Below are positions 29,991 through 44,920 of a stretch of 64,000 bases of DNA, piece by piece. Positions within the stretch are counted from its first letter, which is position 1; each line of letters begins with the position of its first letter. Source of the stretch: Ensifer canadensis (lineage in GTDB: Bacteria; Pseudomonadota; Alphaproteobacteria; Rhizobiales; Rhizobiaceae); the NCBI RefSeq assembly GCF_017488845.2, contig NZ_CP083371.1:310001-374000 (forward strand). The letters run 5' to 3'. Made by a program: the position numbers and the translations under genes. Under the pieces are notes generated by a model. The model was given only the letters and a program-made list of their open reading frames with translations. It made no database searches and was not told the DNA's origin.

Positions 29991-30031
29991 AAAAAATGGG
30001 CCCCGGCATGTACAGCCAGGGCCAATTTTTT
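29991..30031. terminator. Terminator of the asb operon
   Basis: Stem GGCCCCGGC (29999-30007) pairs with GCCAGGGCC (30015-30023) with one mismatch and a 7-nt loop. On the minus strand a run of T follows (complement of aaaaaa at 29991-29996); on the plus strand a T run also follows (30026-30031). It lies 44 bp after the asbF stop. Confidence 0.82.
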
Positions 30032-30074
30032 ATGCGTTGCACCGACAAAGACCGATGACACCGCTAAAACGCAA

Positions 30075-30923
30075 TCACGAAAAGTTGACTGTCCGCCGTA
30101 TGGGTTCACGCCCCTCGATCACGCGGCGAACCTGCCTGCGATCGCGACGCAGCACATCGAGGCAATCATTGCCGAACCATTCCAGCGATGCGTCGTGCTG
30201 TCCGTCGCCCGCGATCTCCAGGAGAAAGCCGGTATAATCGACCGTGCCTTCGAGCAACGGCGTCATGCCGTCGCGACGGCCGGCCGCGGCATAGACGTTT
30301 GCCGGTTCGAAGACCGAGAGGTCAGACCGGTCGCGGATGTTCTTCAGATGGTAATGGCGGATGTGCGGCATCATCTGGCGATGCACGGCGATTGGATCGT
30401 CGCCGCCCTCCCAGACATGGAGCGTATCGAAATTGATCGCGAAGGCGGGTTGGTCGACCTCCTCGATGAGACGCAATGTCGAGGCCGCAGTATCGGCCAG
30501 CGTCTTCGGATGTGTCTCCGCCAGCAGTTGAATGCCGTAGCTGGCAGTGATCGCGCATATCTCTCTCAGCCGCTCCACGATGCGCTGCCGCTCTTCGTGG
30601 GAGACGGAGAGACTGCCGCAATTGCCGGCGAAGGTACGGATTTTGCGGGATCTCCAGCGGCGGGCGAGCCTGCAGAGCTCGACAGTCTTGTGCCGCAGCG
30701 TCTCCTTATCGCCGTCGAGCGGCAGATAGTCGCTGATCATCGGCACATTCAGCCCGAAAGTATCGAGCCAATCGGCATTGCGGTCGGGCTGCTGCGCCAG
30801 GTTGCGTGCATGCGCACCCCAGAGCTCGATCCCCTGAAAATCGTTGGATTGCGCCCAGGCGGCGATTTCGCCGAGGGAAATCAGATGATGGCGAAACGTG
30901 ATCGTGCACAGCGATATGTTCAT
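30075..30923 (-). CDS. asbF: 3-dehydroshikimate dehydratase, petrobactin biosynthesis
   Basis: A 282-aa TIM-barrel metalloenzyme that matches Bacillus AsbF closely from the first residues (SLCTITFRHHLISL, GIELWGAHARNL, PMISDYLPL). It turns 3-dehydroshikimate into 3,4-dihydroxybenzoate, the catechol of petrobactin. Likely Mn ligands are Glu136 (LLAETHP), Asp166 (INFDTLHVWE), His192 (HYHLKNI) and Glu248 (LEWFG). Its start overlaps the asbDE stop by 4 bp. It is the last gene of the operon, followed by a strong terminator. Quinate-pathway dehydroshikimate dehydratases are the only real alternative and are ruled out by the neighbours. Confidence 0.92.
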   Translation of the reverse strand: MNISLCTITFRHHLISLGEIAAWAQSNDFQGIELWGAHARNLAQQPDRNADWLDTFGLNVPMISDYLPLDGDKETLRHKTVELCRLARRWRSRKIRTFAGNCGSLSVSHEERQRIVERLREICAITASYGIQLLAETHPKTLADTAASTLRLIEEVDQPAFAINFDTLHVWEGGDDPIAVHRQMMPHIRHYHLKNIRDRSDLSVFEPANVYAAAGRRDGMTPLLEGTVDYTGFLLEIAGDGQHDASLEWFGNDCLDVLRRDRRQVRRVIEGREPIRRTVNFS

Positions 30924-32245
30924 CGCGCAACCCTTTTCAGCGTGGGCCTCTCCAGCATGGGAATGTCGGCGGCAATGTTCTGTTCACACCAGAGATCGAA
31001 GATCTCGGCGAGCTTTCCTTTCAGTTTCGTCTCGATCCGGTCGGCTTCTGCCAGCCGCTCGAACACCGGGGTGGCCAAGGCGCGGTCGCCGGTCTGGCTC
31101 AGCTTCATGCAATCGTAGTGCAGCGATTTCAACGCCTGGACGAGCGCCTCGATCTCTTCGCACCAGCCTTCGAACTCGGCGGCCGGCAGCTTTAGGGCTC
31201 GCCAGAAGAACGCAAAGCCATGCTCGTAGGCGTATTTGCGGATGGTGATGACGGGCAGTTCGCGCACGGCCTCCGTGAGGTCGGAAAGGTCGATGCCGCC
31301 GCGTCCGTCGATATGAGCCGTGACGATCATGCGAACGGTGTCGGCCAGCGGATTGCTGGCTCTGATAAAGCAGCCCTCGAAATAGGCCTTGAGGTCTTCG
31401 GCTGCCGGTGGCCGAGCCTCTGCATTGTCGAAGACATAGCCGCCGCCGACGGTCGGCTGCATCACCGCATGGATCACCTTGTCCCGCGCGATCTCGCCTT
31501 CCCAACGGTAGTCGGGATCATGCACGAACCACGTATCGGGGTCGGCGGTTTCCTGCAGCATGAGGTAGTGCGGGAAGGGGTTCTGGTTGAACTTGTTCTC
31601 GCGCTCCGGCAGGTGGAACATGTCGAGCATGACCATGACGGAGCCGGTATCTGCGCGCCGTTTGACGAGGTCGAGCATCACGGTGAGATTTTCGCTCTTG
31701 CTGATGTCAGGGTCGTACCATTCGTAAACGGTGACGCCGTAGAGCCGCTGAAACCAGCTGCGGAAGAATTCATGGCTGATCTCGGGTGCATGATAGAGAA
31801 GCTGGAAGCGGTCGCTGAGCCCAAATTTCGCGTCCCAGACACCGAAATAGAACGGTCGGTGGTCCAGGCCCTTTCGCTTCAGCCCGTCGCAGACGCAACT
31901 GACGAAGCAGTGCACCTTGATGTCGTAATAGGCCTCGCCATGCACGCCTTCGTCTGTCGTACCGCCGGTTAATGGAAACGATGGGACGAGCGTCTCGATC
32001 GACTTCGGCTCATAGAGCGCGGCGAGATCGGCGACCGTCTGGACATCCTGGCGGGCGATCGCCTCTTCCGGAACACTCAGCCCGTATTCCAGCTCCAAAT
32101 TGAGAAAGATCTGCAGGATCAGGACGGAATCGAGATAGAGGTCCTCGTTGAGGCGAGCGTCGGGGCCGAAGCCGTCGAGATGCGGATGCATCATATGGTC
32201 GCTGAGGACCTCGTGGATCGCCTCGAGGATTTCGTTGCTGGTCAT
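30920..32245 (-). CDS. asbDE: AsbD-AsbE fusion: aryl carrier protein plus polyamine aryl-transferase
   Basis: A 441-aa chain that begins with an acyl/aryl carrier domain (residues about 1-85; phosphopantetheine Ser40 in LYLDSVLILQIFL) and continues as an AsbE-like protein (from about residue 95: EAYYDIKVHCFVSCVCDGLKRKG, HFPHYLML-type and FVHDPDYRWEGEIARDKVI segments). In Bacillus these are two genes. The carrier receives activated 3,4-dihydroxybenzoate from AsbC, and the AsbE part moves it onto the free amine of spermidine or a citryl-spermidine intermediate. Start and stop overlap asbC and asbF by 4 bp each. No stop, frameshift or ribosome site separates the two domains. Confidence 0.88.
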   Translation of the reverse strand: MTSNEILEAIHEVLSDHMMHPHLDGFGPDARLNEDLYLDSVLILQIFLNLELEYGLSVPEEAIARQDVQTVADLAALYEPKSIETLVPSFPLTGGTTDEGVHGEAYYDIKVHCFVSCVCDGLKRKGLDHRPFYFGVWDAKFGLSDRFQLLYHAPEISHEFFRSWFQRLYGVTVYEWYDPDISKSENLTVMLDLVKRRADTGSVMVMLDMFHLPERENKFNQNPFPHYLMLQETADPDTWFVHDPDYRWEGEIARDKVIHAVMQPTVGGGYVFDNAEARPPAAEDLKAYFEGCFIRASNPLADTVRMIVTAHIDGRGGIDLSDLTEAVRELPVITIRKYAYEHGFAFFWRALKLPAAEFEGWCEEIEALVQALKSLHYDCMKLSQTGDRALATPVFERLAEADRIETKLKGKLAEIFDLWCEQNIAADIPMLERPTLKRVAR

Positions 32246-33522
32246 GACGCGGCTCCGGCGATCGGTTTGGTGAACTCACCGGCGGCGTGCCGGGCGGCAA
32301 CCTCGCGGCGGCTGATCTTGCCATTGGCCTGGCGCGGGATGGTGTCGACCTGGCGGATGTCCATCGGCAATTGATGGCTGGCGAGATGCAGACTGCACCA
32401 TTCGCGGATCGCCTGCGGCGCGATGGTTTGACTGGCACTGAACAGGAGCGCCACGCGCTCCCCGGCAAAGCGGTCGCCCATGCGGAAGGCAACGGCGTCG
32501 CCGACTTCGGCCATCGCCATCACCGCATCCTCGACATCCCTCGGATAAACGTTGAGACCGGAGACATTGATCATGTCGTCCATGCGCGACACAAAGACCA
32601 GCATGCCGTCATCGCGGCGATAGCCGAGATCGCGGGTGTGGATGGCGATACCGTCGCCCTTCGTCACGACGATTTCACCTGCATTTTCCGCATTGCTGCC
32701 GGTCTGCGGCAGAAGATGCGGCAGCACGAACCCCATGTCGCCGGCGGCGGTGACATCCGGATTGATCGCGATGCATCCGGCTTCGGAGCAGCCATATTGC
32801 TGGAACATATGCCGGCTCCTGGCCCTGATCTGGGCAAACCAGGGATCCGGCAGCAGCGTGCCCGAAGTCATCGTCGCATGGATCTGCTCGCCCTCGGGCA
32901 GCAGCCGGGCAAGCGTGTGCAGGATGGCCGGCGACGAATAGAGCAGCGGCCGCTCGATCTCGCGAAGAACCTTCATGAGATATTTCGGATTGGCGGTGTT
33001 GACGATAACCGGCGTCTGGCCGCGCTTGAGCGCCACCAGGATGCCGCAGATCAGGCCATAGGAATGGGTCGTCGGGCAGGCGATGACCGGGGTCATGTCC
33101 TCCGGCGCGCGGAAGATGCCAATATAGCTTTCGATCTCGGCGTCGATATCCTCCCAGCTGCGCGCCACGCATTTCGGCGCCTCTGTCGTGCCCGAACTCA
33201 TCTGCAGCAGCGTGCCAACCGGCAAGGCGTTTGCGGGTCGTTCCAGCACTTCGGCCGTGAGGCTGTTGTAGAACAACCGGTCGCAGCCGGCCCCGATCGC
33301 AAGCTTGCGCGCGGCGGCATAGGGCGTGCCCGGATGGATCGGCAACACGCTGGCGCCGGCCTTGCGGATGGCGAAGAATAGCGCCAGCCAGTCGATGGTT
33401 TCGGCAAAGCAGACCGCGTAGCGTCCGTCGTCGCGGTCCTTCAGGCCGATCTGCCCGGCCAGGCGTGCGGATGTTTCGTCGAGATAGGCGCGATCATAGA
33501 GCCTGTCGTCGATACGGATCAT
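32242..33522 (-). CDS. asbC: 3,4-dihydroxybenzoate-AMP ligase
   Basis: ANL-superfamily adenylating enzyme of 426 aa. It activates 3,4-dihydroxybenzoate with ATP and loads it on the AsbD carrier. Motifs are the P-loop-like LQMSSGTTEAPKCVARSW, the aromatic-pocket HSYGLICGILVAL, QQYGCSEAG, and the late hinge MDDMINVSGLNVYPRDVE and PRQANGKISRRE lysine. The ATG at 33520-33522 has TTGGAGAAAG before it and starts a normal-length protein. The gene follows the IS110 element, which separates it from asbB. Other aryl-acid ligases are unlikely given asbDE and asbF directly downstream. Confidence 0.88.
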   Translation of the reverse strand: MIRIDDRLYDRAYLDETSARLAGQIGLKDRDDGRYAVCFAETIDWLALFFAIRKAGASVLPIHPGTPYAAARKLAIGAGCDRLFYNSLTAEVLERPANALPVGTLLQMSSGTTEAPKCVARSWEDIDAEIESYIGIFRAPEDMTPVIACPTTHSYGLICGILVALKRGQTPVIVNTANPKYLMKVLREIERPLLYSSPAILHTLARLLPEGEQIHATMTSGTLLPDPWFAQIRARSRHMFQQYGCSEAGCIAINPDVTAAGDMGFVLPHLLPQTGSNAENAGEIVVTKGDGIAIHTRDLGYRRDDGMLVFVSRMDDMINVSGLNVYPRDVEDAVMAMAEVGDAVAFRMGDRFAGERVALLFSASQTIAPQAIREWCSLHLASHQLPMDIRQVDTIPRQANGKISRREVAARHAAGEFTKPIAGAAS

Positions 33523-33539
33523 AGCTTTCTCCAATGAAA

Positions 33540-34960
33540 GAACACAAGGGGCGAAACGCCTTCGATTGGCGGCTTTTCCTTGGGTTCGGTTGGTTATTGA
33601 TCGGCATTTTCGCCGATCGGCTAAATCTCTTCCTTCCGCGCGACAGGCATCTGCCGTTCGGTTCTTGAACCAGTCTCCAATGCGTGACCCTGATGCCGTG
33701 CTGGCTTCGGTCACAGAGTGGCGTTCGGCTCCCGGCTTCCCATTCTCCTTGAGGAGCGCAGCCCAGTCCTGCCGGGCTCGCTAGACGACAATCAGGACAG
33801 CCGGGATATCGTCGACGCGCCTTCCGTGGTGCTGGTGCCGCGCGGCTCGTAAGCGCGCTGGTCACGCAGGATCTGGAAGGCGATCGTCAAAAGCTTGCGC
33901 GCGATCGCCACACGCGCCTTGTTGGTTCCTCTGATCTTCAGATGCTCGTACTGGTCATGAAGTTGCGCATCGCTGGCGATGGCGGGGGTGACGGCTTCGA
34001 CGAAAGCCCAGCGCAGCCACTTGTTGCCCTGCTTGATGATCTTGCCGTGAAAGGTCTTGCCGCCGGAGGAATAGGTCGAGGGCACCAGTCCGGCATAGGC
34101 GGCGAGCTTCTTCGGATTGCGAAAGCGGGATACATCGTCAATCTCCGCGTCGATCAGCCGGGCGAAGAACTCGCCGATGCCGGGGATCGTCTTCAACAGC
34201 TTGACGTTGGCATTGGCCTTGGTCATCGCCCGGATCGTTGCTTCCGACTGCTTGATCCGCACGTCAATGTCGCCGATGAAGGCGAGGCCACGGTCGATCT
34301 GGATGCGGTCGATCTCCGAGACGTTGACTTGCGCCAGCTGGACGCGGCCGGCCTTGCCAAACAGATCCCCGAGCTTCTTCAGCTGTGCCGTCTGCTCCGG
34401 ATAGCGATCAAACACCGTGACAATGCGGTTCTTCGTCATCGTGCGCAGCCGCACGTAAAACATCCGCTCGCGCAGGGCGACGCGCAGGTCTCTTGCTCGT
34501 TCGCTGGGCGCCCAGGCCTCCGGCACCAGGTCGGCCCTGAGCAGATGCGCGAGCACCGTCGCATCGATCTTGTCGGTCTTGATCTTGGCGTCGGCAATCG
34601 CCTTGACCTTCAAAGGATGGGCGAGAACGACATCATCGCAAATGTCGTCGAGCCAGTCGTACATCACCATCCAGTTGCGCGTCGCCTCGACCACGGCATG
34701 CGAGTTCTCGCGGTAGCGTTCCAGAAACCCACCGAGCGACTGGCGATCGTTCTTCACCCGACCCGATCTGAGCGTCTTGCCGCTGCTGTCCTGCACCACC
34801 AGATGACTATAGGATTTGTGGTAGTCGACGCCGATATGGTAATCATAAGAGGCAGTCATGCTTCCAACTCCCTTGTTGAGATCTTCGAAACCCCAATAAG
34901 GTAAGCCGAAAGGCCGGAAGCGTGACTGTCCCTCGATCATCACCTGCATCTCAATGGTCC
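33540..34960 (-). mobile_element. IS110-family insertion element between asbB and asbC (ends approximate)
   Basis: The transposase at 33792-34859 is flanked by non-coding DNA on both sides, about 250 bp on its downstream side and about 80-100 bp upstream. IS110 elements lack clear terminal repeats and target duplications, so the ends cannot be fixed here; the boundaries given are the limits set by asbC and asbB. A hairpin GATCGGC/GCCGATC (33599-33605 with 33612-33618) lies in the downstream flank. Orientation is the same as the asb operon. Confidence 0.65.
33792..34859 (-). CDS. IS110-family transposase
   Basis: A 355-aa DEDD recombinase. The RuvC-like N-terminal domain has Asp12 in GVDYHKS, Glu58 in AVVEATRNW, and Asp96 and Asp99 in KTDKIDATVLAHLL. 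The C-terminal Tnp20 domain holds IPGIGEFFARLIDAEI, the serine in LVPSTYSSGGKTFHG and GNKWLRWAFVEA. The gene looks intact. The ATG at 34857-34859 gives the usual IS110 N-terminus (YDYHIGVDYHK). In this family the non-coding flank encodes a bridge RNA that selects target and donor sites. Confidence 0.9.
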   Translation of the reverse strand: MTASYDYHIGVDYHKSYSHLVVQDSSGKTLRSGRVKNDRQSLGGFLERYRENSHAVVEATRNWMVMYDWLDDICDDVVLAHPLKVKAIADAKIKTDKIDATVLAHLLRADLVPEAWAPSERARDLRVALRERMFYVRLRTMTKNRIVTVFDRYPEQTAQLKKLGDLFGKAGRVQLAQVNVSEIDRIQIDRGLAFIGDIDVRIKQSEATIRAMTKANANVKLLKTIPGIGEFFARLIDAEIDDVSRFRNPKKLAAYAGLVPSTYSSGGKTFHGKIIKQGNKWLRWAFVEAVTPAIASDAQLHDQYEHLKIRGTNKARVAIARKLLTIAFQILRDQRAYEPRGTSTTEGASTISRLS

Positions 34961-36727
34961 GTTCTCTCCTGGGAGGCGGCTGCTTTCATGCCACCTCCTT
35001 CGTTGAAGCCTGTCCGCGGCCAAGGCATTGGGCACCACGTGGTGGTACTCGGGCTTGCGCGCGAAGAGCTTCCTCGTCATCAGGGATTCGGTGAGAATTT
35101 CGGGGCCGTCGTGGCCGAGCTGCGCCTGCCGGCCCGCCGTGCCATGCCTATGCGGATAGGCTGACAGCAGGCTTTCGACCCGCTGCCAGAACAGCGGTTC
35201 GCGAAGATCGTAGCAATGGTCGAGAAGATGGCTGATCTCGCTCAGATTGTAGACGAAGAGAGTGTCCATCACCAGTTCGCGCAGCGAATCCAGATTGTCC
35301 GTCCAGTAGAACTGGTCCGGCTCGGCGTCCCGGTAGAGCGGATGCAGGGATGGAAAATCGGGCGCCTTTTCCGGTTCGCGCAGAAAGCCCGGCGAGAATT
35401 CGATGCTCTCGTGGAAGTCCCGCAGGATCAACCGGACCGGCCATCCGTCGCGATGCACGAGCAGCATGTTCTGGCCATGCGCCTCGACGGCAATGCCGTG
35501 ATGGACGAGCAGATGCCAGACCGGCAAGACGGCGACTTCGAGCAACCGGTTGATCCATGGCATCAGGCCGAAGCGCCGGATCCAGTCGTCGGCAAAGGGC
35601 CGCCCGTCTGTCTCCATCATCATCAACGCGGTGAAGGGAACGACGGCTTCTCCGGTTTCCAGCGTTGCTTGCGCGCTCTGGCGCCAGATCGCGCCCACTT
35701 GTCCGGCCAACGGCTCGTCCGCATCGGCGATGATCCCGGCATATTCCTGCAGGATGGTGAGCGGGTATTGTTCGCTGAACAGCGGATCTGAAGCGACGAT
35801 CTCGCCGATCCAGCTTGAGATAACCGGCGCGGTGCAGACCGAATGCGGTTCCAGGATGCGGCGCGAGGACGTGTTGACGATGTTGAGCGGTAGCTTGACG
35901 CTTGCCGCTTGCGGTCGGTTCTCGTTGAGCAAGGAGCGTACCGACTGGGTCGCCGTGTAGGGGTCGCCCGCCGGGCCGAGGCAATGGGCATCGCCGTCTT
36001 CGAGCCAGCCGGCAAGCAGTGTTTCGCTCAGGTTGCGCCATTGCCACGGATGCAGCGGCACGAGCCCGAAATCCTCAGTGCAGACACCGAGCTGCTGTTG
36101 CATGCCCTGAAGATGCGCCCAGGTTTCCCCGCCAAGTTCGGTCCGCCAGAATGCCTCTTCTGTGTCGGGCAGCGTCTGGCGCAGATGCTTGCGCGCGACG
36201 AGCAGCCAGACGAGCTGAAACGACTGGCCGGCCTCCGGGCCGAAGAGGGCATGGTCCGCCTGGGAGAAGCCGGTGCGGGCCTTGTAGCAGGGGTGGTAGG
36301 GATGCCCCTCGTCGATTGCACCTTCGAGCTCGGCGAAGGACATCTCCCGCCGCGGACGGGCGATAAGATGACGGTCATTCCACTCGGAAAAGGCAATCGT
36401 CTGCATCATCTCGTTCAGCAGCTTGCCGCGGGTGATGCCGCTGCCGGGCAGGGCGGAAACCACAACCGAGAGCGACGCCTCGCCCCAGCTGCCGTCGCTT
36501 TCCCGCATCTGCACCGATCCCGGCAATGGCCGGATTCGCCCGAATGCGCCGAGGATGGCATCGCACCGAAAGTCGCGGCCGCCGAGCGTCCAACGAAAAT
36601 GCGTTGCACCATCGCCGCCGCCCTCGCTTTGGCGCGCTTCGATGACGCCTTCGAACAGAAGGGCGGCGGCAAGCTGGCGAAGCACCCGGTCGTCGGGGCG
36701 TCCCTGGAGATCAAGAGGCAATGGCAT
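34940..36727 (-). CDS. asbB: NIS siderophore synthetase AsbB
   Basis: A 595-aa IucA/IucC-family (NRPS-independent siderophore) synthetase. It joins the second polyamine arm to the citryl intermediate, using ATP. Motifs are GHPYHPCYKARTGFS, LVPLHPWQW, SVRSLLNENRPQAASVKLPLNIVNTSSRRILEPHS and the C-terminal domain HHGIAVEAHGQNMLLVHRDGWPVRLILRDFHESIEF. The start at 36727 lies inside the end of asbA (17-bp overlap), with GAGG about 11 nt upstream. The last residues (after HHVVPNALA) may be altered by the adjacent IS110 element, but the conserved domains are complete. Confidence 0.88.
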   Translation of the reverse strand: MPLPLDLQGRPDDRVLRQLAAALLFEGVIEARQSEGGGDGATHFRWTLGGRDFRCDAILGAFGRIRPLPGSVQMRESDGSWGEASLSVVVSALPGSGITRGKLLNEMMQTIAFSEWNDRHLIARPRREMSFAELEGAIDEGHPYHPCYKARTGFSQADHALFGPEAGQSFQLVWLLVARKHLRQTLPDTEEAFWRTELGGETWAHLQGMQQQLGVCTEDFGLVPLHPWQWRNLSETLLAGWLEDGDAHCLGPAGDPYTATQSVRSLLNENRPQAASVKLPLNIVNTSSRRILEPHSVCTAPVISSWIGEIVASDPLFSEQYPLTILQEYAGIIADADEPLAGQVGAIWRQSAQATLETGEAVVPFTALMMMETDGRPFADDWIRRFGLMPWINRLLEVAVLPVWHLLVHHGIAVEAHGQNMLLVHRDGWPVRLILRDFHESIEFSPGFLREPEKAPDFPSLHPLYRDAEPDQFYWTDNLDSLRELVMDTLFVYNLSEISHLLDHCYDLREPLFWQRVESLLSAYPHRHGTAGRQAQLGHDGPEILTESLMTRKLFARKPEYHHVVPNALAADRLQRRRWHESSRLPGENGPLRCR

Positions 36728-38495
36728 GGCTGGTCCTCAGGGTCGTCAGCGCCGCGGGTGCCCGCAAAGGGTTTGGAACGGGGCGATAAAGGACCGGCGC
36801 GTGGTCGGATTGCAGTTCGTCGACATTGAACAGCCGGGTGGTCAGGTTGGCCTTCGACGCGATCGTCGGCAGGTCCAGCACATGCCGGGCGAAATCCCGT
36901 CCGGCGCCGGTCATGCCGAACGCGCATTGCTCCAGGTGGTTCCGGAGCATCCTGAGAAGCGTGCCTTCGTCGCACAATCCGTCGTGGCCCATGCGGCTGA
37001 TCACCGAGAAGACCTGATTGACGATGAGGTAATAGGCGAAGCGGTCGCGGATTTCGCTTTCGGGAAAATAGAGCGACGGGATCGTCTCGGTTTCAGGGAC
37101 GTGGCTTGCGAGCAGGCTGCGATAGCGTTCGGAGAGATAGAAGCCCTGGTTATCGCGGTAGTAGCTGACCGTGGGGTAACTGGCGCCGATGTCGAGCAGG
37201 CTGTTTTGCTGGTGCGCTTCAAGGGCGACGCCGTAGTCGTCGTAGAGTCGGATCAGCGGCTCGACGGCGCAATCGAGATAGCGTTGGAACCAGGCGATGC
37301 AGACGTCGGCGAGACGCTCTCCATCGCTGCTGGCGAGCGTGCGCAGGAGTTTTTCGAGCCTCGACGGTGTTTGCGCAAGCGGGTCGGCCGTCAGCGCGGC
37401 CACGGTTATGACGCCCTGTCCGTTGCCGTGCGCGAAGGGGTTTTCGCGCAGGATGACCTCGAAGCCGCTCTCGCTGTGACCCGGCAAATCGAGCGTGATG
37501 TAGGCCGGGTCCTGGATGATCCTGAAGTTCGCCGCGCGTTTAGCCAGGCCGATCCGGTCGACGAGCTTGGCCATGGCGACACCGGCCTCCAGCTCCTGCC
37601 TTCGGTTCAGGCGTACGGAATTGGTGATGCGCACCGGCAGGGAAAACTTGAGCATCCAGTCTTCAGCAGCACCATAGACCGTGCGGACGGACGACGTTGC
37701 GCTGAAGAGAGAACCGGTTGGGCCGAGGTGACGCAGGATGCCGGCCCGCTGCATCGCCTGAATACCGGGATCGAGAAGCAGGGCTTCCGCCTGCAACGGG
37801 TGCATCGGCAGCAGGCATTCGTCACCGGTAAGGCCCAGCCCTTCCGCGTCAAGTCCTGACAGCGAGCGGATGATATCGGGTGCCTGTATCGAGCGGGAGG
37901 ATGCGTGACTGACGTGGTCCGCCTTCGCAGCGAAATAATGCAGCTTGAACTGGCCGCGCAGTTCCGGCGCATAGCTTTCCTGCTGCCAATAGGTCATGCC
38001 CTGCCGGCTCTTCGGCGTGGGGTGCAGCCAGTGCCCGAAGACAAGTGACTGCTCGGCCTCGAGAAAATCGTTGGCGTCTTCCTGACGCGGTTGCGCCCTG
38101 TCGACGTAGAGGGCGGTCTGCTGATAGCTTTCGAGCACCCGGATCAGAAGCTCGAGCTCGAAGCCGCGCAACGCATCTGTCTGACCGGCGTCGTCCTGAC
38201 GGTAGGCGGCCTGGACCAGCATATGGAGCGCAGACATCAGCTCGATCGGACGCCACGACCGATCGGAGACGTTGCGCCCCCAGGCCCTGCCGAAGTGAAG
38301 CGGGCCGCACAGCGACGATGAGGTGACCTCGACGCGCAGGATCATTTGCTGGCGGGGAAGCGACCATTCGATGCTGTCGCAGGATCCGCTGGCGGTCCGG
38401 TGCCTGACCGGCACGCCGGGATTGACCTCCCTGAGGTAGCAGTTGGCGAAGCTTTGAAATGTCGCAGTTTCTGCGATTTGCCTAGACGATTTCAT
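36711..38495 (-). CDS. asbA: NIS siderophore synthetase AsbA
   Basis: A 594-aa IucA/IucC-family synthetase, first gene of the operon. By family it activates citrate and couples it to spermidine. Motifs are the LMSALHMLVQAAY region, GDECLLPMHPLQAEALLL, SLFSATSSVRTVYGAAEDWMLKFSLPVRITNSVRLNRRQELEAG, and YDDYGVALEAHQQNSLLD near the C-terminus. The ATG at 38493-38495 has a GAGGAT site about 9 nt upstream. The frame opens 63 codons earlier but without support. Position, order and the partner asbF identify the product as petrobactin-like rather than aerobactin or rhizobactin. Confidence 0.88.
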   Translation of the reverse strand: MKSSRQIAETATFQSFANCYLREVNPGVPVRHRTASGSCDSIEWSLPRQQMILRVEVTSSSLCGPLHFGRAWGRNVSDRSWRPIELMSALHMLVQAAYRQDDAGQTDALRGFELELLIRVLESYQQTALYVDRAQPRQEDANDFLEAEQSLVFGHWLHPTPKSRQGMTYWQQESYAPELRGQFKLHYFAAKADHVSHASSRSIQAPDIIRSLSGLDAEGLGLTGDECLLPMHPLQAEALLLDPGIQAMQRAGILRHLGPTGSLFSATSSVRTVYGAAEDWMLKFSLPVRITNSVRLNRRQELEAGVAMAKLVDRIGLAKRAANFRIIQDPAYITLDLPGHSESGFEVILRENPFAHGNGQGVITVAALTADPLAQTPSRLEKLLRTLASSDGERLADVCIAWFQRYLDCAVEPLIRLYDDYGVALEAHQQNSLLDIGASYPTVSYYRDNQGFYLSERYRSLLASHVPETETIPSLYFPESEIRDRFAYYLIVNQVFSVISRMGHDGLCDEGTLLRMLRNHLEQCAFGMTGAGRDFARHVLDLPTIASKANLTTRLFNVDELQSDHAPVLYRPVPNPLRAPAALTTLRTSHAIAS

Positions 38496-39101
38496 GTCTG
38501 TCGATCCTCGGCACGCGACATGCAAAGTCGCGCAATCGCGTCGCGTGGGAGGCGCAACGCATTGAATTTTCGTAGTGAACGGGCTCAGGTCGGCGTGATA
38601 TGCATCACGCACGGTCTGCCAGCCGCCCGAGGAGGCGGATGGGATTGGCGCAGGATATGGCGGGCTGACAGCCGGGCGCCACATGAGGTTGGCCCAGGCG
38701 GGCGCGATTGACGACGTCCGTTTGAACGGTTGGTGCGGACGGAAGCGATATGTGTCGGCGACGCCGCGTGCCAGGTCGTGAACGTCAATGCATCGGTCGC
38801 CATCGCTCCAGGAAGAAACGAACCTGTGCGGTCACGTTTTTCCTCGAACGGCGGACGTCCGTTGCGGCATTCCGGTGAGCTCATCTTCCACCCGTCTCGG
38901 CTTCGGCGCGGTGCTTCAGCATGCGCTTTCATACAAAGACGACCGGCTCCCGATTTTTTTTCACCGATCCGGAATTTTTTATGATTATTTTTGTCCAGTT
39001 AAATCCGAGCCCGGTCCCCAAGGCGGATCGGTGCCGGGTCGCACGTCGCAATCGCCCGGCAGGGCGTGGCGACGCGGCCCTCAGGCAGGCAATTTTGGGT
39101 A
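38496..39101. promoter_or_regulatory. asbA promoter region with CRP-like palindrome
   Basis: About 600 bp without a gene. GCGTGAT-ATGC-ATCACGC at 38593-38610 has the GTGA-N6-TCAC layout of CRP/FNR-family sites, 98 bp before asbA. An AT-rich stretch at 38950-38996 could hold promoter elements. No clear Fur, RirA or Irr box was recognised. Confidence 0.45.
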
Positions 39102-39932
39102 TTAGCGCAGATGCAGGGCGCGCTGGAATTCGGCGGGCGTGCGCCCATAGGCCTGTTTGAAGGACGCACTGAAATGGCTGTGGCTGGAAAAGCCGAGGTC
39201 GAGGCCGAGTGCCGTCAGGTCATGGCAGGAGCCGAGCAGGTCCAGCGCTCGCGCAAGCCGCAGCCGCAACTGATAGCGATAGAGCGGCATGGCTTCGACC
39301 TGCTGGAAAACCTGGGTGAGATAAACAGGTGACACGCCGACCTCCGTTGCCACCTCGGCCAATGTCCAGCGGCGGGCGAGATCGGTCGAAAGAACCAGCT
39401 TCGCCCGATCGACCAGCTTTTCGCGCCCATAGGTCGTAGCAGCGCTATGCGACGTCCTCTCGCCGAGCGAACGCCGGATCAATGTCAGCGTCAGGGTCTC
39501 GGCTTCGAGCGTTTCGGCAATCCCGCGGCGAAGGCTGTAACGCAACAGCGCGACAAGCGCCTGCGCTCGTGGATCGATCCGCCGGCGCGGTCTTTTGAAC
39601 GCGGCAAGCGCCCCCGACCGCAATTGCTCCTTCGGCGCGAGTTCGCAGAGGATGGCTTCGTCCACTTGCACGTCGAGGCATGCATCGCCGCCTTCGATCG
39701 GATGACTGACGCGATAGTCTTCGCTGCGGTTGAAGAAGATCACCTGATTGGATTCAGCCACCGTATCGGCCTTGCCCACATGCCGCATGAACACGCCGCG
39801 ATAGGGATAGACGAGGCTTGTGCGGTGGGAGCATTCCTCGCCGCTTTTCCCGCGACACGCGCCATCGCAGACCACGTCCCGCAGCGAGGCGGTCGAGGTG
39901 TCGAGAAGCGTCTGGCACGAAAACTGGGACAT
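39102..39932 (-). CDS. AraC-family regulator upstream of the asb operon
   Basis: A 276-aa protein with an N-terminal cupin-like sensing part and a C-terminal AraC double helix-turn-helix (LVDRAKLVLSTDLARRWTLAEVATEVGVSPVYLTQVFQQVEAMPLYRYQLRLRLARALDLL, then LTALGLDLGFSSHSHFSASFKQAYGRTPAEF). The N-terminal part has unusual cysteines (FSCQTLLDT, VVCDGACRGKSGEEC). The ATG at 39930-39932 has an AGGA site. It lies upstream of asbA on the same strand, which recalls AraC activators of rhizobial siderophore genes such as RhrA, but no proof of that role is visible. It is 7 bp after the DUF1127 gene, so the two are probably co-transcribed. Confidence 0.82.
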   Translation of the reverse strand: MSQFSCQTLLDTSTASLRDVVCDGACRGKSGEECSHRTSLVYPYRGVFMRHVGKADTVAESNQVIFFNRSEDYRVSHPIEGGDACLDVQVDEAILCELAPKEQLRSGALAAFKRPRRRIDPRAQALVALLRYSLRRGIAETLEAETLTLTLIRRSLGERTSHSAATTYGREKLVDRAKLVLSTDLARRWTLAEVATEVGVSPVYLTQVFQQVEAMPLYRYQLRLRLARALDLLGSCHDLTALGLDLGFSSHSHFSASFKQAYGRTPAEFQRALHLR

Positions 39933-39939
39933 TGCGGTC

Positions 39940-40188
39940 CTATTCGTCGCGTTTGTAGAAATCGTTATAGGCGGCCCCGCGCGACAGGCCAATATCCTTC
40001 AGCTGATGATCGGAAAGCGCAAGCAGATCCAGGCGCCCGCGCCGCGTCTCCATCCAGCGGGATACCCGCGCAAGCAGCCGCCGGGAAAAGCCATGTGTTT
40101 CGAGTGCCGTCGAAAATCGGTCTCGTGGGCCGATCAGGCGAGTGGAGACATAGATCAGGTTGTCATGGGATGAAGCTGTGTCCGCCAT
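39940..40188 (-). CDS. DUF1127-family small protein
   Basis: An 82-aa protein whose C-terminal half is a DUF1127 motif (RRGRLDLLALSDHQLKDIGLSRGAAYNDFYKR). Start is the ATG at 40186-40188 with AAGGAGATG upstream; an ATG six codons earlier overlaps that site. DUF1127 proteins in rhizobia and agrobacteria affect phosphate and carbon metabolism and RNA turnover. Its stop lies 7 bp before the AraC gene. A 29-bp element, also found upstream of the gene at 29553, lies about 60 bp upstream. Confidence 0.82.
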   Translation of the reverse strand: MADTASSHDNLIYVSTRLIGPRDRFSTALETHGFSRRLLARVSRWMETRRGRLDLLALSDHQLKDIGLSRGAAYNDFYKRDE

Positions 40189-43314: not shown

Positions 43315-44790
43315 TCAGCGCTCCCGTGCGTCGTTCGGCAACGCCAAGCGAGCCACGAGCACGCGACCCGCAAGAGCGATGACGACCGCCAGGAGAATGA
43401 GGCCCGCCGCGACAGCGAAGGTGACCCGCATGCCTGACGCGACGGCCTCGGTTGGTGCCGTGGCGATGTCGGATGCCGCCGATGCCAAGGCGAAGACGGC
43501 GCCCATGACGGATGCGCCGGTGACGAGCCCCAGGTTGCGCGACAGGTTGAGCATGCCCGAGATGACGCCGCGGCGATCCGGCGGCACGTCCGCCATGACG
43601 GCGGTGTTGTTGGCCGCCTGGAAGAGAGCATAGCCGGCGGTGACGACGACGATGGGCGCGAGGTAGCCCGGGATGGCGAATGTTGCCGGCAGGATGGAGA
43701 GTGCTGCGGCGCCGGCCGCGATTGCCGCAAGTCCGGCCATCATCACCGGTCGCGCGCCGAACCGGTCGACGAAGCGGCCCGCCGGTATGCCGCTCAATGC
43801 CGCCACCACCGGACCGACCGACATCACCAGCCCAATCGCTGCCGGATCGAGGCCAAGGGCGCGCGTGAGATAGAAGGGACCGACAACCAAAGTCGTCATC
43901 ATCACCGTCGAGACCAGCGCATTGCTGATCAGGCTCGTGCTCAAGGCCGGATCGCCAAACATCGCCAAGTGTATCAACGGGGATGCGACCTTCGTTTCGA
44001 CCATTGCAAAAGCCGCGACGCCCAGGGCCACGGCCAGCAGCAGAACGATATTGAGCGGGCCGAATTGGCCGCGGCCGATGGTCATGGCAAGCGCGTAGGC
44101 CGCCAGCGTCAATGCCAGCACGACGGTGCCTGGCACATCGAAGCGGGCAGGGGTGGGCGTCGTCCCTTGGCGGTCGGCAGGCAGATGGCTATGCGCAAGC
44201 ACATATGTGAGGAAACCGAGCGGCACATTGACGAGGAAAAGTGCGCGCCAGCCGAAGCCGGTGATCAGCGCGCCGCCGAGCGATGGCCCGAGCGCAGTGC
44301 CGATCGCGGACATCATTCCGAGCAGCCCCATGGCGCTGCCGGTGCGTGCCTTCGGCACCGTCTCGGCGACGAAAGCCATGGTCAGTGCCATCATGATTGC
44401 CGCGCCGAGCCCCTGCGCCGCGCGGGCGGTTATCAGCAGCCAGAGCGTCGGGGCGAAGCCGCTTAGGCCCGAGGCAAGCGTAAAGAATGCGACGCCACCG
44501 AGCAGCAGTCGGCGTCGGCCGACGATGTCGCCGAGCCGGCCGACGCCGACGATCAACGCGGTGATGGCGAGCAGATAGGCAAGCACCACCCATTGCACGT
44601 CCTGGAACGGCGCATCAAAGGTGCTGGCCAGCGTCGGCAGGCCGACATTGGCGATGCTGGTGCCAAGCGCCGACAACAACATGGAGAGCGACAGGCTGGC
44701 CAGCGCCCATCGGACCGAACGCGTCCGTCCAATGGCTCCGACATTTGGCTCGGCGGGTACTGCAATATCGCGCTTCAAGACAAGCTCCAT
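43315..44790 (-). CDS. MFS exporter, EmrB/QacA-like (14 TM)
   Basis: A 491-aa drug:H+ antiporter-2 type transporter with about 14 membrane helices. Motif A is GRLGDIVGRRRLLLGG and motif C-like GLLGMMSAIGTALGPSLGGALI. It should export hydrophobic compounds by proton antiport. It diverges from a LysR gene and may be controlled by it. The ATG at 44788-44790 is used; a longer start 18 codons upstream is possible. A role in siderophore export is conceivable but unsupported by distance. Confidence 0.85.
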   Translation of the reverse strand: MELVLKRDIAVPAEPNVGAIGRTRSVRWALASLSLSMLLSALGTSIANVGLPTLASTFDAPFQDVQWVVLAYLLAITALIVGVGRLGDIVGRRRLLLGGVAFFTLASGLSGFAPTLWLLITARAAQGLGAAIMMALTMAFVAETVPKARTGSAMGLLGMMSAIGTALGPSLGGALITGFGWRALFLVNVPLGFLTYVLAHSHLPADRQGTTPTPARFDVPGTVVLALTLAAYALAMTIGRGQFGPLNIVLLLAVALGVAAFAMVETKVASPLIHLAMFGDPALSTSLISNALVSTVMMTTLVVGPFYLTRALGLDPAAIGLVMSVGPVVAALSGIPAGRFVDRFGARPVMMAGLAAIAAGAAALSILPATFAIPGYLAPIVVVTAGYALFQAANNTAVMADVPPDRRGVISGMLNLSRNLGLVTGASVMGAVFALASAASDIATAPTEAVASGMRVTFAVAAGLILLAVVIALAGRVLVARLALPNDARER

Positions 44791-44920
44791 CTGTTGGCAA
44801 TCTCCGAAATGGAGCTGCCAGAAGCCTAGGCGTCTGCGTGACATGGCGGAAGGCGCATGATTTGCACTTTATTCATGCATCAGGCGCCACATCCCGATCA
44901 AACTGCGCTATACCAAGCGA

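Follow-up and report, generated by a model that had tools for sequence, protein, structure and literature searches.

An insertion sequence within a petrobactin-type operon

The stretch of DNA analysed here (the window, 64,000 nucleotides long, C2:310001-374000 of the 8.09-Mb genome of Ensifer canadensis) carries on its minus strand, from 38495 to 30075, a petrobactin-type siderophore operon in the order asbA-asbB-asbC-asbDE-asbF, with an insertion sequence (IS) between asbB and asbC. The features of this interval, in the direction of transcription, are listed below; ORF stands for open reading frame, SD for Shine-Dalgarno sequence, NIS for NRPS-independent siderophore and aa for amino acids.

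36711..38495, minus strand: asbA, NIS synthetase, 594 aa (profile scan run on the longer ORF from 38684)
34940..36727, minus strand: asbB, NIS synthetase, 595 aa, its C-terminus altered by the inserted element
33528..35000, minus strand, co-oriented with asb: IS110/IS1111-type insertion sequence of 1473 bp between asbB and asbC, delimited by copy comparison
34995..35000, minus strand: captured host SD, AAGGAG, before the ATG of the element (AAGGAGGTGGCATG); the bases before GGAG differ among copies
34951..34989, minus strand: leader ORF of 12 codons that the captured SD opens, ending in TGAGATG at the long transposase frame
33792..34949, minus strand: IS110-family transposase ORF of the DEDD type (in most relatives with annotation the start given corresponds to 34859)
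33654..33787, minus strand: conserved non-coding stretch that follows the transposase gene, a candidate seekRNA or bridge RNA
33752..33756, minus strand: CTCCT, anti-SD-like candidate top-strand guide, by complementarity only
33741..33750, minus strand: AAGGAGAATG, candidate bottom-strand guide, in which the positions ahead of GGAG covary with the target in the host
33528..33534, minus strand: replacement SD, TTGGAGA, before asbC, from junction comparison
32242..33522, minus strand: asbC, aryl-acid ligase, 426 aa (profile scan run on the longer ORF from 33714)
30920..32245, minus strand: asbDE, carrier domain fused to a DUF6005 transferase, 441 aa, from profile matches
30075..30923, minus strand: asbF, 3-dehydroshikimate dehydratase, 282 aa, from profile and structure matches

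An earlier note on this DNA had placed asbA, asbB, asbC, asbF and the D and E functions here in that order, and both protein families and solved structures bear this out. The products of asbA and asbB match PF04183 (191.8 and 222.1 bits) and PF06276, that of asbC matches PRK08308 (546.3 bits; cut-off 513), that of asbF matches AP_endonuc_2, and that of asbDE matches DUF6005 (498.1 bits) behind an N-terminal AsbD-like carrier whose score of 71.8 bits lies under the equivalog cut-off of 100. Among solved structures, AsbB matches 3to3 (E=2.7e-98), the closest PDB match of AsbA is IucA (5jm7, E=2.9e-45), and the near-complete AsbF match that had been reported holds good (3dx5, E=1.4e-75, residues 1-263 of 282). 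The fusion in asbDE is ordinary: in 15 other genomes of the genus it aligns continuously from residue 1 to 429-441 within open frames of at least 445 aa, and annotated relatives have a single DUF6005 protein of asbDE size. The petrobactin set of two NIS synthetases, aryl ligase, carrier, DUF6005 transferase and AsbF is thus complete and ordered, and the assignment of a petrobactin-type pathway to the operon is well supported. The gene order of the earlier note and its overlaps of 4-17 bp also stand (17 bp for asbA/asbB, 4 bp for asbC/asbDE and 4 bp for asbDE/asbF). The contiguity of the operon does not, since the 1473-bp element, the least ordinary item in the interval and one which that note overlooked, parts asbB from asbC.

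Insertion into the Shine-Dalgarno sequence before asbC

The transposase ORF, whose first 10 bp overlap the present end of asbB, scores 231.8 bits against NF033542 (cut-off 140) and covers profile positions 1-153 of 155 in DEDD_Tnp_IS110 and 2-87 of 87 in Transposase_20, which places the element in the IS110/IS1111 family. We set its ends at 35000 and 33528 by comparing the six copies in this genome, a copy in E. adhaerens NER9 and 18 uninterrupted asb junctions (those of 15 genomes of the genus and of L044-L046, in which L044 repeats G006 and L045 repeats G001). In the two closest relatives (L029 and L039) the empty site reads CTTCAACGAAGGAGAAAGCCATG; in the window it reads ...CTTCAACG-AAGGAGGTGGCATG... 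on the left and ...CATTGGAGA-AAGCTATG on the right. The element entered the SD of asbC, so that AAGGAGAAAGCCATG of the relatives has become AAGGAG-IS on one side and IS-TTGGAGAAAGCTATG on the other, and both reading frames were left usable. Because GGAG is common to the two sides, the exchange point cannot be placed within these four bases. Copies differ in the bases that precede GGAG on the left and in those that follow it on the right, which points to a host origin of these bases.

The five further copies in the same genome match the asb copy over 1472-1473 bp with 99.5-99.9% identity, and two other matches there are short and weak. Judged by the adjoining of asbB and asbC, the element is absent from this position in the 15 other genomes of the genus. 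A megablast match to it was found in 120 of 72,556 plasmid records, chiefly from Rhizobium, Sinorhizobium and Ensifer; in 76 records the match spans 80% or more of the element. Some match is present in 44 of 297 genomes of the family, and, with no more than two candidates scored per genome, at least seven (G000, G001, G013, G045, G100, G142 and G161) have one of more than 800 bp. The IS1111 group has subterminal inverted repeats of 7-17 bp; near the ends of this element a 7-bp pair, ATGAAAG and CTTTCAT, can be read that may be such a repeat. That the 12-codon leader is a coding sequence was set aside, since its frame is lost in several copies; its translational coupling to the transposase frame is a guess.

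The same site has been hit elsewhere. In E. adhaerens NER9 an element occupies the same position between asbB and asbC, and it is 88.8% identical to that of the window and 98.6% identical to a copy in E. adhaerens Casida A. The asb genes of NER9 are 97.9-99.0% identical to those of Casida A, whose operon is uninterrupted. The simplest reading is that the two interruptions are independent insertions at the SD of asbC.

Start-codon context of the insertion sites

Is the position before asbC typical of the element? Of the 26 copies first compared, all but L096 and L098 carry an ATG 4-7 nt beyond the right end, which makes 24 (L098 has TTG at 5 and ATG at 8). An ATG whose ORF is 60 aa or longer, or runs on to the end of the locus, follows in 21 of the 26, against 3.8% of random positions (ORF-length exceptions: L022, L091 and L097). 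The next set, of 92 loci, gave 91 non-coding cores, 84 with a right end and 54 with a left end; ATG lies 4-9 nt after GGAG at 74 of the 76 distinct right junctions from rhizobia (exceptions L096 and L116). The background is much lower: among AAGGAG motifs in L099-L164, elements included, ATG occurs 4-9 nt on in 68 of 266, and in the window, L052 and 15 stretches from the genus it occurs 3-10 nt on in 86 of 590 AGGAG, 25 of 143 AAGGAG and 15 of 78 AAGGAGA motifs.

A gene is annotated as starting 5-8 nt past the end of the element in eight of 14 plasmid records (L085, L087-L090 and L093-L095), and these genes include sarcosine oxidase delta and mmsB. As for the remaining records, the downstream gene is annotated from inside the element in L092 and from further downstream in L096 and L097, and L086, L091 and L098 are without downstream annotation. 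One of the copies, on an Allorhizobium plasmid (L085:2078-2635), directly precedes another IS110-family gene.

The targeting of an SD by an IS110-family element is already known from IS900 of Mycobacterium avium subsp. paratuberculosis, whose reported target motif CATGNNNNNNTCTCCTT is the reverse complement of AAGGAGANNNNNNCATG (PMC8141618). The rhizobial element shows the same relation, insertion at an SD with a start codon beyond it. If the IS900 motif is written in the orientation of the element, the IS900 transposase would run against the target gene, whereas that of the rhizobial element is co-directional with its target gene, and the right end of the rhizobial element supplies a new SD. 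Among the literature matches listed, no report was found of a rhizobial SD-targeting element, of a co-oriented layout with SD replacement or of guide-target covariation at SDs.

A candidate guide RNA

How might the element find such sites? The region 3′ of the transposase gene is well conserved except for two variable parts, one immediately ahead of GGAGAATGG and the other a loop farther along. According to PMC11187229, the seekRNA of IS1111 elements is located 3′, with the top-strand guide before the bottom-strand guide. The present element has the layout of the IS1111 group: its longer non-coding region lies on the 3′ side of the transposase gene and its candidate guides come in the same order, the top-strand guide being assigned by complementarity. 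CUCCU or CUCUU, a possible top-strand match, precedes the bottom-strand guide segment in most copies. The guide is unpaired in the consensus fold, and in single-sequence folds CTCC and GGAG are able to pair together. No Rfam match was found in 30000-40000 at gathering thresholds.

The candidate bottom-strand guide covaries with the host bases before GGAG. At 48 distinct left junctions, guide and host agree at positions -1, -2 and -3 in 48, 46 and 28 cases, respectively, against shuffle means of 40.7, 30.8 and 14.1, and none of 10,000 shuffles reached the observed values. At -4 to -6 there is no excess (6, 7 and 9 of 48). Of the copies in which the guide does not have AA at -2 and -1, both positions match in ten of 11 (exception L112). 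Three of these ten (L116, L126 and L148) belong to a single lineage and share one kind of site. The three cores in which the guide is broken (L110, L133 and L150) have no left end and stand outside this count. We think it probable that a 3′ non-coding RNA directs the transposase to the SD.

In the three copies of that lineage the guide is TATCGGAG, and the sites that they occupy read CATCGGAG/TATCGGAG; both of the right flanks compared lack a start codon, and they resemble each other. Perhaps this is a naturally redirected guide with a different target; natural redirection of guides has been described (PMC11187229).

Several observations weigh against guidance to start sites. First, the stricter motif AAGGAGAA raises the background, with ATG 3-10 nt on in 13 of 32 cases in the same window, L052 and genus stretches. 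Second, two of the 48 left junctions (L023 and L112) mismatch at -2, as does L114, which was removed as a duplicate junction, and 20 of the 48 mismatch at -3. Third, relatedness among the copies makes the shuffle test optimistic. Fourth, some copies (e.g., L057, L087, L088 and L096) have a top-strand guide other than CUCYU, and compensatory changes were found in none of the 33 pairs of the consensus fold, which was built on 34 sequences.

A rival explanation, to which we give a real but lesser chance, is that the element recognizes GGAG-like DNA no more than loosely and that the start-codon pattern arose from selection removing insertions inside genes. AAGGAG is indeed common away from start sites, 198 of the 266 motifs having no ATG 4-9 nt on, and the excess of guide matches is limited to positions -1 to -3 and so stops short of the ATG. 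For guide and host bases to covary, however, a recognition step is required, and the two explanations are compatible if the guide accounts for the GGAG motif and selection for the start sites.

For guided insertion, which we favour, we propose the following course of events. The IS110/IS1111-type element entered the SD of asbC, apparently recently, its transposase probably directed by a 3′ non-coding RNA in which an SD-like stretch, with an anti-SD-like stretch beside it, would recognize NAGGAG(A) in DNA. Target and element ends have GGAG in common, so that insertion leaves an SD on either side: the AAGGAG of the host, extended by the element to AAGGAGGTG, would serve the element's own ORF, and TTGGAG at its right end would serve asbC. 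On balance we lean towards the wider view that the guide RNA of a widespread rhizobial transposon mimics the ribosome-binding signal and so reads the translation-start code in DNA, which would allow the element to enter operons almost without damage, to upgrade the host SD to AAGGAGGTG for its own ORF and to leave the host gene a weaker copy, its guides drifting along with SD variants.

In its long 3′ non-coding region and guide order, the element resembles the seekRNA/bridge RNA IS1111 elements of PMC11187229 and PMC11208160. Their targets are attC sites, REP sequences or a short linear target, whereas that of the rhizobial element is a generic ribosome-binding site, and its guide RNA is a candidate drawn from sequence. 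The terms 'Shine' and 'start codon' do not occur in the available text of PMC11208160, nor 'Shine' and 'IS900' in that of PMC11187229. The rhizobial element links RNA-guided IS110-family recombination to the older observation on IS900. It also constitutes a natural experiment, with dozens of copies, varied guides, matching targets and two hits on the same asbC start, in which one can test how mobile DNA reaches safe, expressed sites via a universal sequence signal.

Consequences for the operon

In L029, L039 and L045 AsbB ends in ...LQRRRKP*, and in the window it reads out of the element as ...LQRRRWHESSRLPGENGPLRCR*, having lost its last two residues, Lys-Pro, and gained a 17-residue tail. 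asbC retains its ATG start and a GGAG. The calculated SD duplex energies come to -9.6 for the asbC site when empty, -17.3 for the ORF of the element and -6.4 for asbC as it now stands; over 50 junctions the medians are -16.9 kcal/mol at the left of the element, -9.3 at empty sites and -6.4 at the right, in the same order in all 50, an ordering that largely follows from the conserved ends of the element itself. The energies refer to an assumed anti-SD, a 16S 3′-end pattern having no match in this genome, perhaps because its rRNA is masked. No terminator-like site was found in 33300-35200, where shuffles gave a mean of 1.9.

It might be thought that the IS breaks the operon, with transcription or translation of asbC-asbF stopping inside the element and the strain siderophore-negative. 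For this speak the 1473 bp now lying between asbB and asbC and the poorer calculated pairing of the SD that remains for asbC, and polarity may cause loss of downstream expression. We nevertheless consider a complete break unlikely: the element is co-oriented and free of terminator-like sites, asbC keeps a start codon and an SD, the downstream genes are intact in the window, and the copies in the eight plasmid records above lie similarly 5-8 nt before annotated genes. Because asbC kept its start codon and AsbB exchanged just two residues for a tail, the pathway is most likely still functional, although output of asbC-F may be reduced. On the whole we judge it likely that a genus-wide petrobactin-type operon was struck at the SD of asbC by a probably RNA-guided IS110/IS1111-type element and that its pathway still works. 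The sequences themselves show the operon, the element, its empty and filled sites, the start-codon context and the guide-target covariation; a guiding RNA, continued petrobactin production and the translational effects are inferred.

The siderophore pathway in the genus and family

The earlier note had proposed a search for asb homologues and synteny across the family. The results do not support rarity. All 16 genomes of the genus have AsbE (DUF6005), and in every one of them asbA-B-C-DE-F follow one another in that order. Within the family AsbE is found in 29 of 297 sampled genomes, spread over 15 of 109 genera, and five of the 29 belong to this genus. In Sinorhizobium fredii, use of an fprA-asb-fat cluster under RirA and FecI has been shown by mutants, ChIP and siderophore assays, in a study whose comparison takes in E. 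adhaerens Casida A and which describes the cluster as rare in other rhizobia (PMC8822346); petrobactin is treated as the self-produced siderophore of the same S. fredii strain, CCBAU45436, in PMC12815270. Because all 16 genomes carry the operon and the S. fredii system is published, its presence here is expected and already known, and the siderophore part of our observations is of small value, being a genus trait already studied in a relative.

The biosynthetic genes and their order are the same as in the fprA-asb-fat clusters of CCBAU45436 and Casida A. In contrast to those clusters, the fecR-fprA pair lies 32 kb off and the DUF2218/FatB-like pair on another contig, and the window has an AraC gene before asbA and the IS splitting asbB from asbC. 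The rhodopetrobactin cluster of Rhodopseudomonas and Methylorubrum shares an asbF homologue, iucA/iucC genes and a conserved petrobactin-type hypothetical gene; compared with the gene types in the figure legend of PMC13251462, the window adds asbC and the carrier fused to the DUF6005 protein. Two variants were seen outside the genus. In Roseateles sp. XES5 (L048:6177-9176) asbB and asbC form a single annotated coding sequence of 999 aa. On a plasmid of Neorhizobium galegae VafX2 (L047:8001-14077) asbB and asbC each match in two pieces and no asbF match was found within the stretch; this copy looks decayed.

Petrobactin is a bis-spermidinyl citrate with two 3,4-dihydroxybenzoates, and rhizobia make homospermidine. 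The latter fact underlies the suggestion that the product is a new petrobactin analogue with homospermidine arms, and the main text of PMC8822346, as far as available, has no occurrence of 'mass spectrometry', 'LC-MS' or 'spermidine', which leaves the rhizobial product open there. We regard such an analogue as quite unlikely, since every Asb function is encoded as in petrobactin producers. Moreover, the genome has a strong match to an nspC-like decarboxylase (406.9 bits, just below the cut-off of 409.05), which makes a spermidine route plausible in this strain.

Regulator, receptor and exporter genes

Two further genes lie upstream of asbA in the window:

39102..39992, minus strand: AraC-family regulator upstream of asbA, found in six of the 16 genomes of the genus
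43315-44844, same strand as the AraC gene: MFS transporter gene upstream of the AraC gene, possible exporter

In nine of the 16 genomes fecR-fprA-DUF2218 lies directly upstream of asb. The AraC gene takes the place of these genes in six (this genome, G002, G005, G007, G012 and G013), and G015 has neither within the stretch compared; AraC matches under 40% identity were excluded, and the stretch from G002 was 14 kb long. An exact RirA-like TGA-N9-TCA motif, in the form taken from PMC8822346, was found in none of the six AraC-asbA intervals, those of the window and five relatives.

As the earlier note stated, no receptor gene adjoins the operon. The genome search that it had proposed for a TonB receptor and an exporter nevertheless brought a candidate for each. 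A homologue of the TonB receptor FprA (C2:380953-383259; 68% identity to a Pararhizobium query) lies beside a FecR gene on the same replicon, outside the window and 32 kb beyond asbA. The ORF before this fecR has no Pfam match and is 38% identical over 130 aa to the pre-fecR stretch of G014; it is possibly FecI. A FatB homologue (44%) adjoins a DUF2218 gene on C1 near 3.271 Mb, and a second, weaker DUF2218 match lies on C4. As for export, the statement that no such gene is near has to be qualified by the MFS gene, a possible exporter, relatives of which lie near asb in the stretch from G015 and, cut by the stretch ends, in those from G005 and G007.

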